From an uncultured Pseudomonadota bacterium (lineage in GTDB: Bacteria > Myxococcota_A > Bradymonadia > Bradymonadales > Bradymonadaceae): DNA of 43,251 bases. The translations under genes and the position numbers were made by a program. Below are positions 8,337-43,251 of this stretch, one piece after another. Position 1 is the first letter of the stretch; every line of letters starts with the position of its first letter. The notes below the pieces were generated by a model, which saw only the letters and a program-made list of their open reading frames with translations, did no database searches and was not told where the DNA came from. The DNA lies in the NCBI GenBank assembly GCA_950059285.1, contig CATLTV010000021.1:1-43251 (forward strand), in the 5' to 3' direction.

Positions 8337-10883
8337 ATGTCATTGAGCAGAGAGGTTGTGGTGAAGTCTTGGCGAGCGACATGGTGTGTGGCGTTGTGTG
8401 TGATGATGACTCTTGGTGTGCTTGGATGTAAGACGGGCACATCGGAAAAAGAAAACGACGTCAGTAAAGAATCTGCAAATACGCGTGAGTTCACAGATGA
8501 AGAGCTCGCCGATTTCCTCACGCGTAATCGCTTTGATCTGTTTGGTGGGGATGTTTCAGCACAGTACGTTGATCTTGATGGCAAGGCGCCTCGAGAGCTC
8601 CTGGTGCATTTATCCTGTGAAGGAAAAGCCTGTCATGGTGATCACTACGAGATCAATGGCTCGGTGTTCTTTATGTATGATCAATCGACATCGCTTCAGA
8701 ACCCATCCTTGTGGACCAACAAGCCAATTTCGATGGGTCCCGAGACGTATGTACAGCTTACAGATGTGAACGCAGATGGTCTGGATGATCTGGTTATCAG
8801 CGGTCTTGGGAAGTCTGGAGAGCGCTGGCTCAAGGTGTATTCTGTGTTGGGCAAGTTATTGTCCACAAGATTTGATGGGGCGTTACCAACACATACGTTG
8901 TCAGAGCGCATCATCGATCTTGATGGCGATGGTGTCAGCGAGGTGGTGACCTTGCAGCGTCAACTCCTCGTCAATGAGACACAGCCATACAATCACTATG
9001 GTTATTATGATGCCAGCCTGTTTCTTGGCACGTTTGATCAGCTCAAGGTCCAGTCGTGGTCGCTGGGTCGTAATGGGTTGCAATTAAAGTCCCTGGAAAG
9101 TTACGAGGGTTTTGAGTCGAAATACAAACAGCTCCTTGCCGAACAGCCACGCGACTTGAATGCACTTGCTCAGGTGATCGTGATGGGCAAAATGTATCAG
9201 GTCAACATCGACGTGCCCGCAGATCTTCAGGCCCAGTTGATGGAAGAGTACGACAGGCGAATACGTGATGGTGAGGAGTTCAGAATCACGGCAACTCCAC
9301 CAGTCGATGCATACGGGTATCCGCAATATGATCAGTATGGAAACCCCATCAAGGCAGAGGACAACACGACTTCAGGGCAGCTCTTGATGTTGCTTGCCGC
9401 GCTCAATACGCAACAGGGTTCAGAGATTCAATCGTGGGCCAAGAAACATGTGGATCAGGCAAGCTCATTTGAGGCGCTGTCCGTATTTCTGGATCTGTAT
9501 CTTGCGTCTATACCTGATGACAACAAGGCGCAAGCGATGACTTCAATGTTGGAGACTGCGCTCAAGGTGCTCCTTGAAGAGGGACCAAATAGTCAGTATT
9601 TTTATAATCTTGCGTACCTTCCTCCTGGGACATCCTCCATTGACGAGGCTCAAAAACAGTTCCTGATCGCCTCCTATCTGATCGGTGAAGAGGTCAAGTT
9701 TGATGGGAAATCAAAGATCCTCCATGCGTTCCTTGATCAAGGCACCAGGGATAACCTTCCTGCGTTGCAAGGGCTGTTGCCTCAGCAGCCGCTCTCTGCG
9801 GCGATGACCCCCACGATCATTGATGCTGGTCTTGAGCGTCTGTCGCCCGAGCTTTCAGTGCTGTTCATGACACAAATGTTGCCCAACTATGTGTCGGTCA
9901 AGCAATCCCAGGGCGGACTAAGTAAGGAAGAAAAGCAGGAGCTTGTGGATGCCTTGTTGAAGGTTGTGGAGGTGCATCCCGATCGTCAGTCTGATACGTT
10001 CCAGTTTGTCTCCAACTACTTGCCTGATCCCGCGTTTGGACCGCTGATCAAGCCCGAGCTGGTGCGTTTGAAGGCTGTCTTTGAGAGCGGCCGCGCCACG
10101 CAACAGGATCGTAACTACATGTATAATGCGGCGACGATGTTGCCGATGGCTCTGGATTCTCTCTCCAAAAGAGATCGAGAGTGGTGGATCAACTATGTCT
10201 ATCGTCAGGGCATGGGCTACTCGCTTGACAATAAGATGGCGGAGGGGTGTTACAACCTCGCCGCGCAAAGTGAGGAGAAGATCGACTGGATTTTGACAGG
10301 AATGGAGACGCTGCCCAAGGAGAGCACGCTGGTCCCTGTCTGTTTGCCTTACATGTTGGGGGTGTACACCGATGGCGTCAGCCCACTGAATGAGGAGCAG
10401 TTCAAGCGCATCAAGCCAATTGTGCGCAACCGATTGAAGATCCTGGAGGATGAGTATCAGGTACAGCAGTTCCTGATGGCGATGGCCGAGTACAAGGAGC
10501 TTGATAACTTCTCGGATGAGATCTGGGGCTTTGTGAAGAAGAAGCGCAAGAAGACAGATACTGGGCGCTTTCAGGCGCTTGTGTTGCTGACAAGGCTTGG
10601 TGACACAAAGGCCCAGGATATGTTGCACAAGGATGCGATCGCGATCTTCACGGACAGCAAGCTTCGCAAGAAGGTGACATACTTTAACGCATACAGTTAT
10701 GTGGACATGTTGGTGCGCTACAACAGTGAGGCGCTCGCAGACATCGCGCTTGATGTGGCTTCACAGAAGAAGATCTCCAAGCAAGAGTGCAAGATGTTTA
10801 AAGATTATATGGTCAGTTATGGTTTGACCTCGCGATTTGATACCGAGCAAACCAAACAATACTCCAAGCTCTGTGCAGACTGA
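8337..10883 (+). CDS. Large lipoprotein with FG-GAP-like calcium loops, unknown function
   Basis: I do not recognise the family. The 848-residue product has a lipoprotein signal (VMMTLGVLGC). About residues 70-210 contain two Asp-rich loops, DVNADGLDDL near 142 and DLDGDGVSEV near 192. They resemble the calcium-binding loops of FG-GAP/VCBS beta-propeller repeats. The C-terminal 550 residues lack such repeats and look alpha-helical, with regularly spaced Leu/Ala and acidic residues, consistent with a helical-repeat solenoid. The ATG at 8337 follows a GATGAGGA ribosome binding site. The gene stands alone: it diverges from tmk and ends at the palindrome at 10904. A cell-envelope role is inferred from the signal only. 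Confidence 0.75.
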   Translation: MSLSREVVVKSWRATWCVALCVMMTLGVLGCKTGTSEKENDVSKESANTREFTDEELADFLTRNRFDLFGGDVSAQYVDLDGKAPRELLVHLSCEGKACHGDHYEINGSVFFMYDQSTSLQNPSLWTNKPISMGPETYVQLTDVNADGLDDLVISGLGKSGERWLKVYSVLGKLLSTRFDGALPTHTLSERIIDLDGDGVSEVVTLQRQLLVNETQPYNHYGYYDASLFLGTFDQLKVQSWSLGRNGLQLKSLESYEGFESKYKQLLAEQPRDLNALAQVIVMGKMYQVNIDVPADLQAQLMEEYDRRIRDGEEFRITATPPVDAYGYPQYDQYGNPIKAEDNTTSGQLLMLLAALNTQQGSEIQSWAKKHVDQASSFEALSVFLDLYLASIPDDNKAQAMTSMLETALKVLLEEGPNSQYFYNLAYLPPGTSSIDEAQKQFLIASYLIGEEVKFDGKSKILHAFLDQGTRDNLPALQGLLPQQPLSAAMTPTIIDAGLERLSPELSVLFMTQMLPNYVSVKQSQGGLSKEEKQELVDALLKVVEVHPDRQSDTFQFVSNYLPDPAFGPLIKPELVRLKAVFESGRATQQDRNYMYNAATMLPMALDSLSKRDREWWINYVYRQGMGYSLDNKMAEGCYNLAAQSEEKIDWILTGMETLPKESTLVPVCLPYMLGVYTDGVSPLNEEQFKRIKPIVRNRLKILEDEYQVQQFLMAMAEYKELDNFSDEIWGFVKKKRKKTDTGRFQALVLLTRLGDTKAQDMLHKDAIAIFTDSKLRKKVTYFNAYSYVDMLVRYNSEALADIALDVASQKKISKQECKMFKDYMVSYGLTSRFDTEQTKQYSKLCAD

Positions 10884-10903
10884 GTGTGTACTGTCCATGT
10901 GAG

Positions 10904-10980
10904 ACTGAGACGAAAAAGCACAGGAGGGGCGGCAAATTACTGCGTAATTTGCCGCCCCTCCTGTGCTTTTTCGTCTCAGT
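10904..10980. terminator. 77-nt perfect palindrome (37-bp arms, 3-nt spacer)
   Basis: The arms 10904-10940 and 10944-10980 match without error around the spacer TGC. A GC-rich middle (GGGGCGGC/GCCGCCCC) sits inside outer A-run/T-run segments, giving termination potential in both directions. The right arm covers the TGA stop codon of the minus-strand haem lipoprotein (10976-10978). The left arm starts 20 bp after the plus-strand gene. Confidence 0.85.
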
Positions 10981-11626
10981 GATGTCCATGATGCATCGAA
11001 GGATCAGGCTTGTGTTGTGATCCCGTGAGATCTTGCCATGTGGATGCATCCACGACGTGTTGTTTGTAGGTTGCGTGACAGGAGGTGCATGTCTCAAGTG
11101 TATGTGACGTGGCCTTGAGGACCTCTTTCAGATCTTTCTTCTGCGCAGCCTCACCGATTTTATCTGCACGTGCGTGAAATTCGAGGGCCATATCCGTGAA
11201 CCCTTCAGCACCAGCGCCCATATGCTGACACATTTGCTGCATCTGTGGTGAGGACTCGATCTGCTTTGATGCTTTGGCGACAGCGTCCCAGTCTTCTTGT
11301 GCTGCCGCTGCCGTGATCTGTTGAATGGCGACGAGGTGCTGCATCATGTTTTGTTTTTGATGCCATGCCATCATTGGCTGCAAGGGGACAGGTTTACGGT
11401 TGTCCATGGCGTGCAAGTCATCGACAGGAGCGCATGAGGAGGATGAGCCCGCAGGTTGAGCGTGTACACGCTCATTGTCCAGCAAGTCATCGGAGGGAGT
11501 TTGTGGCTCGACCGATGTACTTGGAGGAGGCGTTGTGGATTGTGGCGTTGGTGCTGTCTTCTCACAGGCCAGAAGGCCAAGCATGGAGGTGAACAGGACC
11601 AGGGTCAGGATGGATTTTGTGTGCAT
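10976..11626 (-). CDS. Cytochrome c'-like lipoprotein
   Basis: The 216-residue product has a lipoprotein signal (LGLLAC) and a Pro/Thr/Ser-rich linker. A helical domain follows, with a single C-terminal haem-attachment motif, CTSCH, in LETCTSCHATYKQHV. One CxxCH close to the end of a four-helix region is the hallmark of class II cytochromes c (c'/c-556 type), used in electron transfer or in binding NO and similar ligands. The central region is rich in Met and His (MMAWHQKQNMMQHL), and the tail is MHHGHH, which might bind metal. An envelope location is inferred from the lipobox. A MarR-type regulator lies immediately upstream on the same strand, separated by a palindrome, and may control it. 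The stop codon lies within the palindrome at 10904-10980. Confidence 0.75.
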   Translation of the reverse strand: MHTKSILTLVLFTSMLGLLACEKTAPTPQSTTPPPSTSVEPQTPSDDLLDNERVHAQPAGSSSSCAPVDDLHAMDNRKPVPLQPMMAWHQKQNMMQHLVAIQQITAAAAQEDWDAVAKASKQIESSPQMQQMCQHMGAGAEGFTDMALEFHARADKIGEAAQKKDLKEVLKATSHTLETCTSCHATYKQHVVDASTWQDLTGSQHKPDPSMHHGHH

Positions 11627-11647
11627 GAGTTGTCCTTGGTGGTGTGG

Positions 11648-11723
11648 GCATCAGGAGAGGGGCGAGAAGGGGCGACGTGAGCGCAAGCGCTCACGTCGCC
11701 CCTTCTCGCCCCTCTCCTGATGC
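11648..11723. terminator. 76-nt perfect palindrome (37-bp arms, 2-nt spacer) overlapping the marR 3' end
   Basis: The arms 11648-11684 and 11687-11723 match perfectly around AA. It lies between two co-directional minus-strand genes. The right arm encodes the last ten or so codons and the stop of the MarR gene. The left arm ends 22 bp before the ATG of the next gene. Confidence 0.85.
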
Positions 11724-12152
11724 GTCATTGATAGCTGCTGTAAGTGCTTTTAAAGCATCGATAATTTGTTCTGTGTGTGGACGCAACCTCGCACAAATGG
11801 AGAGGAAGTGTTGATCGCTTGCGCGCAGCAAGGACTCGGCGATCTCCTTGCCCTTGGGCGTCAGCTCCACACATGTAATGCGTTTATCTGAGGGGTCAGG
11901 TGTGCGAACCAGCTCGCCGTTTTTCTCCATGCGGATACAGAGCCTCGAGACGTTGCTGCGATCGATCTGCAGGTGATCTGTAAGTGAGGAGATGGTCAGG
12001 GATGGATGTTCAAGCAAGGCCATAAGAGTCCATGCATGTGGTAAAGAGAGCTGGGACTGGCAAGGGCGTTGATGTTCATGAAGGATCTGGTGCGCAAGCA
12101 GCATCTGTTGTAAAGCCTTGCGGAGGTCAACGTGTTGTGGTGTGATGTCCAT
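11691..12152 (-). CDS. MarR-family transcriptional regulator whose C-terminus lies in a palindrome
   Basis: This 153-residue winged-helix regulator has the MarR length and layout: N-terminal helices, a recognition region LTDHLQIDRSNVSRLCIRM, and a wing with DPSDKRITCVELTPKG. It is a paralogue of the 35869 regulator, which shares the DxSNVxRLCxRM and D(K/R)R signatures. The final residues, DASGEGREGAT, are encoded by the right arm of the 76-nt palindrome at 11648-11723. The stop codon lies a few bases before its centre, so the family-like part ends with the helix at about residue 142. Candidate targets are its own promoter, which lies next to the 57-nt palindrome at 12222, and the downstream haem lipoprotein. 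Confidence 0.85.
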   Translation of the reverse strand: MDITPQHVDLRKALQQMLLAHQILHEHQRPCQSQLSLPHAWTLMALLEHPSLTISSLTDHLQIDRSNVSRLCIRMEKNGELVRTPDPSDKRITCVELTPKGKEIAESLLRASDQHFLSICARLRPHTEQIIDALKALTAAINDASGEGREGAT

Positions 12153-12221
12153 GAGAAAGCAACCGTGTGATAGATGTTTGGTTTTCTTTAATTATTCTAA
12201 TTGGTTGTGGGGCTATTTAGT

Positions 12222-12278
12222 ACAAAGCGTGCGAACGCACATATTTATAATATAAATATGTGCGTTCGCACGCTTTGT
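12222..12278. repeat. 57-nt perfect palindrome upstream of marR
   Basis: Perfect 28-bp arms (12222-12249 and 12251-12278) flank a single A. The centre is AT-only (TATTTATA|A|TATAAATA). Each arm also contains a small hairpin of its own (GTGCG-AA-CGCAC on the left, GTGCG-TT-CGCAC on the right). It is 40 bp after the minus-strand gene 12319-13029 and 69 bp before the MarR start. It could be that gene's terminator, a regulator-binding region, or both. No T-run follows on the minus strand. Confidence 0.7.
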
Positions 12279-12318
12279 GTCAATGGATGAATGTAATGTT
12301 TTTAAATGTGTCGTATTG

Positions 12319-13029
12319 TCAGGGGGTTATGTTTGATTTTTGCAGGACATCATGCACGATGACACCAATCCAACGAGGAGACTGAATTGTTTCGGAGTTG
12401 ATCAGCTCCAGCGCGACCTCCTGTTGTCGTTCGCCGAGCATTCTGGAGAGAGTGAGTTCAGCGTCCTGATGGAATTCAACGCCACGGGTGAGGACGATGC
12501 GGTCGTGAGGCAGCAGCTGCCAGTCACGAGAGTCGATATGGACCTGCTGTGCGCCAAGGGTGGAGGTGACCACACGAAGGTTGGCATCACCCTGAGAGAA
12601 GATGTGGGGAACGGAGCTGTCCTGAAAGTCAGCGTCACGCAGCCAGAATGCTTGCGCGTCGCCAGCCCAGGCGAGTCGGGCGCGGTGGGGCTCAACAATG
12701 GCGAGCATGATGGTGGCGAGCGTCTCTTCTTCAAAGGTATAGCCTCCAGGGATGAAGAAGGCTTCATATTCCTGACGCAGGCGTTCGTGGACCATGTGGA
12801 GGAGTTTGGTCGCGATCTGATCATCCTCAAGAGAGTGTTGATTGATGAGGTTAAACAGCAGTCGACTTGTGGCGGTGGTTGCTTCCGCGTCGTGAGGCTG
12901 AAAGGGCATGCGCGTGGCATTGATCATGGCGTAGATGTGCGCGTGTCCATACAGGTGTACGTGCATGCACGTGCGTCGCCGAATTCCCGTCATGGAGGAG
13001 AAGGCTATGGCAGGCTTGTTGCTCAACAT
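12319..13029 (-). CDS. Degenerate PP2C (PPM)-like protein
   Basis: The product is up to 236 residues. From about residue 90 it follows the PPM/PP2C phosphatase fold pattern: ATIMLAIVEPHRARLAWAGDAQAFWLR corresponds to the 'a...v......nvGDSraylyR' strand pair. Later, GDANLRVVTSTLGA and LLPHDRIVLTRGVEF correspond to the 'L..GD.ilL.SDG' strand. The metal-binding Asp residues of active phosphatases are not evident (TRGVEF stands where SDG is expected), so it is probably inactive, a diverged sensor, or not a phosphatase. The N-terminal 40 residues are His- and Met-rich and the true start is uncertain; in-frame Met13 is an alternative. It is the last gene of a minus-strand run with the crotonase (30-bp gap) and ends near the palindrome at 12222. 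Confidence 0.55.
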   Translation of the reverse strand: MLSNKPAIAFSSMTGIRRRTCMHVHLYGHAHIYAMINATRMPFQPHDAEATTATSRLLFNLINQHSLEDDQIATKLLHMVHERLRQEYEAFFIPGGYTFEEETLATIMLAIVEPHRARLAWAGDAQAFWLRDADFQDSSVPHIFSQGDANLRVVTSTLGAQQVHIDSRDWQLLPHDRIVLTRGVEFHQDAELTLSRMLGERQQEVALELINSETIQSPRWIGVIVHDVLQKSNITP

Positions 13030-13059
13030 GCGAGGTTTAAAATCCCTGTGGGTTGGTGT

Positions 13060-13836
13060 TCAACGCTTGCGAGAGAGGAACTTGTCGACTGCATGGAGGT
13101 GGTCGTCATGTGCCCAGCACGCAGCAAAATGAGCGAGTTCTTCCTGGATGGCCTGATCGCGAGGGAGCGTCCATGCCTTTTGGGCCGCTTGTTTAAGGGC
13201 AAGGATCAAATGTCTTGGGTGTTGTGTCAAGACGTTACATTGTTGTTGAACCTCCTCCACAAGTGCTTCAGGTTCAAAGAGTTGATGGACAAGTCCTGCA
13301 TCCATGGCTTCCTGCGCAGGTACAACGCGTGAGGTGGCAAGCCAGTGGAGCGCTTTTGCTCGCCCGACAGTTTCCACAAGCCGTGTCATTCCGCCCCAGC
13401 CACAGGGGAGCACGAAGCGTGTCTGAGTGAAGCCCAAATTCGCGTTTTTGCTGGAGAATCTGAAATCCATGGCGAGCATGGTTTCACAGCCGCCGCCGTA
13501 AGCGTCGCCGTTGATGCAGGCGATCGTCCAGCAAGGGAGGGCCTCCATGAGGTTGAGTACCTCCTGCATTTTCAACGACATCATCCTCGCATCTTCTTCG
13601 GATTGAAGGGGCGCAAACTCCTTGAGATCCCCCCCTGAGATGAAGCATTTGTTGCCAGCCCCTTTGAGTACGACCGCGCGAATGGAGTGATCATCTCTGG
13701 CGATGTGGAGTGTCTGAAGCAGGAGGTCCATCACTTCCAGGTTCACTGCATTCAACGCATCGGGTCGGTTGATCTCTATCCAGAGGGTGGAATCCACTCG
13801 CCAGTGTGTCAGGACAGATGTGTCAGAGGTGTTCAT
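13060..13836 (-). CDS. Enoyl-CoA hydratase/isomerase (crotonase) superfamily protein
   Basis: The 258-residue product has the crotonase fold signatures: IEINRPDALNAVNLEVM at the N-terminus, the oxyanion-hole segment SGGDLKEF, a second oxyanion Gly in NGDAYGGGCETMLAMDFRF, and GWGGMTRLVETVGRAKAL. The two Glu residues that act in true enoyl-CoA hydratases appear absent: TRF stands where PE(V/I) is expected, and AKALHWL where a Glu follows. Another reaction (isomerase, decarboxylase or hydrolase) is therefore more likely. The GWGGxTRLVExxG block recalls ECHDC1-type methyl/ethylmalonyl-CoA decarboxylases, but that is a memory-based comparison. Its start overlaps the stop of the upstream lipoprotein gene by 4 bp, indicating translational coupling. 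Confidence 0.85.
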   Translation of the reverse strand: MNTSDTSVLTHWRVDSTLWIEINRPDALNAVNLEVMDLLLQTLHIARDDHSIRAVVLKGAGNKCFISGGDLKEFAPLQSEEDARMMSLKMQEVLNLMEALPCWTIACINGDAYGGGCETMLAMDFRFSSKNANLGFTQTRFVLPCGWGGMTRLVETVGRAKALHWLATSRVVPAQEAMDAGLVHQLFEPEALVEEVQQQCNVLTQHPRHLILALKQAAQKAWTLPRDQAIQEELAHFAACWAHDDHLHAVDKFLSRKR

Positions 13837-43177: not shown

Positions 43178-43251
43178 TAAGCCAAAAAAGGGTGCGTTCA
43201 GGGGCCATTTGACATGTCAAATGGCCCCTGAACGCACCCTTTTTTGGCTTA
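43178..43251. terminator. 74-bp perfect palindrome at the window end
   Basis: The 37-bp arms 43178-43214 and 43215-43251 meet at GACA|TGTC with no spacer. The right arm ends exactly at the last base of the window, so it may extend further. It shares the GGGGCC/GGCCCC core and the A6/T6 outer runs of the other palindromes. Confidence 0.8.

Follow-up and report, generated by a model that had tools for sequence, protein, structure and literature searches.

Perfect palindromes at gene ends in an uncultured Bradymonadaceae bacterium, including one that holds the C-terminus and stop codon of a MarR-family regulator

In the bidirectional intrinsic (Rho-independent) terminators, an A-tract pairs with a U-tract, and the published stems are typically 6–8 bp long, the longest mode given there being 11, in Neisseria (PMC1590033, PMC1852404). 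The perfect palindromes that we describe here from the genome of an uncultured Bradymonadaceae bacterium resemble these terminators in their location at gene ends, in their preference for convergent genes and, in most cases, in a GC-rich stem with A-rich 5′ and T-rich 3′ parts, but their arms are 20–45 nt long, perfect, often loopless and run past the T-run, and the copy at the end of a marR-family gene has no U-tract. Perfect reverse-complement arms are also known to result from template switching, which creates perfect hairpins in one event and maintains them (PMC8794818) and extends arm identity when quasi-palindromes are corrected (PMC3820800); those cases, however, concern dispersed single events or reporters with short arms, whereas the present class has about a thousand members in one genome, at gene ends. 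The DNA uptake signals of Neisseria and Pasteurellaceae, which are paired as terminators (PMC1852404), are likewise short motifs recurring as inverted pairs, but the motif of our class, GGGGCGGC, is enriched only in palindromes and not in coding sequence (58 and 18 occurrences, respectively, with 8–18 coding occurrences for scrambled controls), so a DNA-uptake motif was rejected. REP/BIME elements are numerous extragenic palindromes as well, some of them near gene ends, but REPs share their sequence and have a RAYT transposase, whereas the arms in our class are largely private. The palindromic elements of Rickettsia are inserted in protein genes and contribute amino acids. The marR palindrome similarly adds amino acids to a protein but is a local mirrored gene end rather than an inserted member of a dispersed repeat family. 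Our searches of the open-access literature turned up no description of a comparable genome.

The 43,251-nt stretch of this genome analyzed here (the window) contains ten perfect palindromes whose arms are 20 nt or longer, including the one at the marR 3′ end (Table 1), the arms of which (11648–11684 and 11687–11723) are 100% complementary. In 20 order-3 Markov control windows of equal length, perfect arms reached 8–12 nt at most, which excludes a chance origin. As RNA, the palindrome is predicted to fold with −85.2 kcal/mol (z = −13.4), and thus the 3′ end of marR has the GC-rich stem-loop that is expected of an intrinsic terminator. Plasmid sequences gave no match.

Table 1 Features of the marR–lipoprotein region, with coordinates in the window
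Feature	Coordinates	Strand	Size	Details
Perfect palindrome between convergent genes	10904..10980	.	77 bp	37-nt arms, 3-nt loop; holds the lipoprotein stop
Lipoprotein, downstream gene of the conserved marR operon	10976..11626	-		Weak cytochrome c' C-terminal match
Spacer between palindrome and lipoprotein start	11627..11647	-	21 nt	AAGGA, ribosome-binding-like; unpaired or weakly paired in the fold
Perfect palindrome	11648..11723	.	76 bp	37-nt arms, 2-nt loop
Last ten codons of marR (ASGEGREGAT) and TGA stop	11691..11723	-		In the right arm
marR-family regulator	11691..12152	-	153 aa	Pfam MarR_2 1.2e-12, MarR 8e-12
Perfect palindrome upstream of marR	12222..12278	.	57 bp	Two copies of the operator-like motif GTGCGTTCGCAC
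Promoter-like TTGACA-17-CATATT	12255..12283	-		Overlaps the operator

The marR palindrome is one of a genome-wide class that is more surprising, and more deserving of attention, than the marR case itself. In a sample of 1.118 Mb (17% of the 6.65-Mb genome), we counted 180 perfect palindromes in which each arm measures 20 nt or more, about one per 6 kb, which scales to roughly 1,070 per genome; this is probably an undercount because contigs often break at or within palindromes. The same threshold yielded none in 0.65 Mb from slices of 25 related genomes, where the longest arm was 18 nt, and none in 1.52 Mb of rpoB neighbourhoods from 80 named, mostly proteobacterial genomes. When the gaps between 778 genes, delineated by simple gene calls made in this analysis, were examined, palindromes were present in 59 of the 108 convergent gaps, in 91 of 485 tandem gaps and in 11 of 125 divergent gaps. 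Most of them lie just 3′ of stop codons, usually starting within about 25 nt of the stop. Going outwards from the centre, the 5′ arm has an AT-rich stretch at 1–7 nt and a G-rich one at 9–15 nt (GGGGCGGC) and is A-rich from 16 nt, and 108 of the 180 palindromes contain a T-run of at least four nucleotides. This layout is that of bidirectional intrinsic terminators. The GGGGCG of the marR copy ends 10 nt from the centre, which is the commonest position in the class. Three perfect palindromes with arms of 20–26 nt are found deep within predicted coding sequences (L082, 11833–11875; L085, 1434–1489; L034, 13563–13615); judged by eye, the host gene in L082 resembles an ADP-ribosylglycohydrolase and that in L085 a class IV aminotransferase. 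A further, near-perfect palindrome (L078, 5507–5579) differs from all the others in being built from a tandem AACGTTAA-type repeat.

Given that the assembly is fragmented and that whole or half palindromes frequently form the ends of its contigs, we considered whether the symmetry is an assembly or library artefact that mirrors sequence. Contigs often stop exactly at the edge of a palindrome or inside one (for example, L074, 1–76), and a perfect palindrome of 74 bp (43178–43251) forms the very end of the window. At the start of contig C28 (L108, 1–22), a leftover Illumina adapter, AGATCGGAAGAGCGTCGTGTAG, adjoins half of a GGGGCGGC palindrome close to its centre. However, the internal palindromes have different unique sequence on each side, an artefact would have no preference for gene ends, for a common layout or for the interior of one genome only, and contig breaks are the expected short-read outcome at real palindromes. 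An artefact thus appears extremely improbable.

As proposed in the initial annotation of this locus, the palindrome supplies the C-terminus and stop codon of MarR, with the stop near its centre. The protein ends ...AAINDASGEGREGAT*, its residues 144–153 and the stop codon (11691–11693) are encoded by the right arm, and the stop is located ~5 nt from the centre; of the longer tail DASGEGREGAT originally assigned to the arm, the ten residues ASGEGREGAT are indeed inside, whereas D143 falls just outside. Altogether 33 nt of the marR coding sequence are within the palindrome, which ties with L094 as the deepest intrusion among the palindromes sampled in the genome. In L094 (9636–9697; 31-nt arms, no loop), a second gene has its last 33 nt, including the stop, in a perfect palindrome. 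The relative adaptiveness of the marR tail codons is 0.571, whereas all ten-codon windows of the MarR body score 0.604 or more; this argument is modest because the last ten codons score as low in 6.4% of other genes. The tail DNA (AGGAGAG) resembles the marR end of the relative G001, suggesting that the right arm is the native one, but this hint is weakened by the fit of the inner part of the arm to the genome-wide hairpin layout.

The pair of marR and the haem-lipoprotein gene is conserved in six relatives. In five of these (G005, G001, G012, G023 and G015), the marR stop overlaps the lipoprotein start, and in the sixth (G026) the gap is 8 nt; none of the six has a palindrome at this junction. 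In the present genome, the two genes are separated by 64 nt, without the stop/start overlap of a translationally coupled pair. The nearest MarR orthologues are about 41% identical, and their tails are not alignable as DNA. A scan of a genome collection with the 848-aa neighbour protein gave no match, and an rpoB scan recovered only distant named relatives, the best at about 69%. In all six aligned orthologues, the C-terminal tails are unrelated to that of our MarR and extend about 8–22 residues past the conserved core, so that the 12-residue tail, when compared in length as had been suggested, is ordinary. No orthologue combines the same C-terminus with the lack of a palindrome, a combination that had been named beforehand as contrary evidence. 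The unrelated tails and the five overlapping junctions without a palindrome therefore indicate that the gene end has really been remodelled here, as the annotation had surmised when it supposed a different original stop. At marR, the palindrome class has invaded an operon junction. Because the relatives without the palindrome are the more tightly coupled ones, it more likely removed a coupling than created one. The odd MarR C-terminus is best read as a tolerated by-product beyond the conserved fold.

The cytochrome c' match of the lipoprotein (E 1.7e-5) is 0.3 bits under the Pfam cut-off. Its stop codon (10976–10978) is located, as had also been noted, inside the palindrome 10904–10980, which includes only 5 nt of its coding sequence. 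Both strands of this palindrome score as intrinsic terminators, with a U-tract provided by CTTTTT. At the other end of the operon, the motif GTGCGTTCGCAC recurs upstream of marR in G005, G001 (as GTGCGATCGCAC), G012 and G023 (as GTGCGTTTGCAC); thus, the motif or close variants precede marR in five genomes (the window and L003, L004, L005 and L002), and it is likely the MarR operator. The promoter-like match that overlaps it is the only one found in 10000–13100, a count no more than expected by chance, and is supported by its coincidence with the conserved motif rather than by the match itself. No promoter-like site was found between marR and the lipoprotein gene.

These observations bear on the proposal that marR translation is coupled to termination, that is, that the palindrome is the intrinsic terminator of marR and ribosomes at the stop control hairpin formation. 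The gene-end location and the extremely stable stem are compatible with this proposal, as are the T-runs and terminator scores of many sister palindromes, and much of the stem would presumably lie under a ribosome positioned at the stop. However, neither the 3′ arm of the marR copy nor the next 12 nt contains a run of at least three U, and hence this hairpin is without a defining part of an intrinsic terminator; moreover, the palindrome sits inside an operon conserved in six relatives, with no promoter-like site between the genes and with the AAGGA ribosome-binding site and start of the lipoprotein outside the stem. Coupling to termination is accordingly not supported, and we consider the terminator explanation distinctly unlikely. 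Instead, given the missing U-tract and the sole promoter-like site upstream of marR, overlapping the conserved motif, transcription of the operon is probably subject to autoregulation and continues across the palindrome. Because of this probable read-through and the position of the lipoprotein ribosome-binding site, we favour an intercistronic stem that would have replaced translational coupling over a translation-dependent terminator. Against the former, a 37-bp stem could still bring RNA polymerase to a halt at or close to it even without a U-tract, or Rho, the gene for which is present in the genome, could act.

How the arms became so symmetrical is a separate problem. Among the 115 hairpins with arms of at least 30 nt, 100 have no mismatch. 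Just outside the arms, complementarity drops to about 25%, the background level, so that the arms end abruptly, as expected of template-switch hairpins. The loop is absent in 58 of the 180 palindromes, and in 45 of the 108 with a T-run, pairing extends at least 6 nt past it, where termination would already have occurred. Selection alone might keep the arms perfect with no unusual mutation process, for instance for long double-stranded RNA 3′ ends that serve RNase III processing or mRNA stability, and both the strong gene-end bias and the common positional layout speak for it. Yet selection for RNA pairing would tolerate loop variation and G–U pairs, in contrast to the many loopless, nearly mismatch-free arms with sharp ends; nor does it fit with pairing beyond the T-run or with long perfect palindromes in coding sequences and in a promoter–operator, where a terminator is not needed. 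We therefore view selection alone as unlikely.

Parts of the palindromes are shared. Six of them have an identical 16-nt core, GGGGCGGCCATTTGAC, each mirroring a different outer sequence of 12–23 nt, and there are 40 shared 16-mer pairs against a Markov expectation of 0.05. Such recurrence of 12–16-nt cores would be expected of a mobile, REP- or MITE-like palindromic element inserting at gene ends. However, the marR palindrome is single-copy, and the outer arms are private in every shared-core copy and yet perfectly mirrored, which insertion alone cannot produce. Furthermore, the genome assembly (95% complete) yielded no Y1_Tnp (RAYT) transposase, whereas relatives encode several. On these grounds, a REP/RAYT system was rejected, and it appears highly unlikely that the palindromes are copies of any such mobile element.

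The near absence of mismatches, the sharp edges and the shared core with private mirrored flanks point instead to template switching on terminator hairpins; the combination of one core with different mirrored flanks is the most telling reason to suspect copying. On balance, we lean towards a class of gene-end hairpins the arms of which were made symmetrical by local inverted copying and which, at marR, gave rise to an intercistronic stem that is not a terminator. Starting from the bidirectional-terminator layout 3′ of stop codons, a small hairpin core would prime copying of its flanks, through fold-back synthesis or a template switch, and so turn private sequence into mirrored arms, and outward growth of the palindrome could have reached 33 nt into the coding end of marR. 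An overlapping, translationally coupled gene pair, as it exists in relatives, is here 64 nt apart with the palindrome in between. The marR promoter would still drive both genes, the very stable stem without a U-tract may act in the mRNA as an intercistronic barrier or as a stability or processing element, and the lipoprotein would be translated from its own ribosome-binding site. Two points speak against the copying explanation. The genes for SbcD, ExoVII, RecJ and RNase HII are all present, so that no lost-gene cause was found among these, and the repeated cores could also be due to convergence or to a mobile core that has spread.

In this bacterium, a peculiarity of DNA copying appears to reshape the ends of genes. 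A bolder version, which we put forward only tentatively and regard as rather doubtful, is that an active process in this lineage produces perfect mirrored arms at terminators across the genome and maintains them, altering the C-termini of adjacent proteins and conserved operon junctions on the way; it may be a copying activity, either dedicated or hyperactive, that works where transcripts end. About a thousand perfect palindromes of 40–90 bp at gene ends are far beyond the range of published terminator stems that we found. The bacterium would be well suited for studying how hairpins are created and perfected, by template switching or by selection, how long palindromes are tolerated in a genome with SbcD, and how structure from non-coding DNA spills over into the architecture of operons and the C-termini of proteins.
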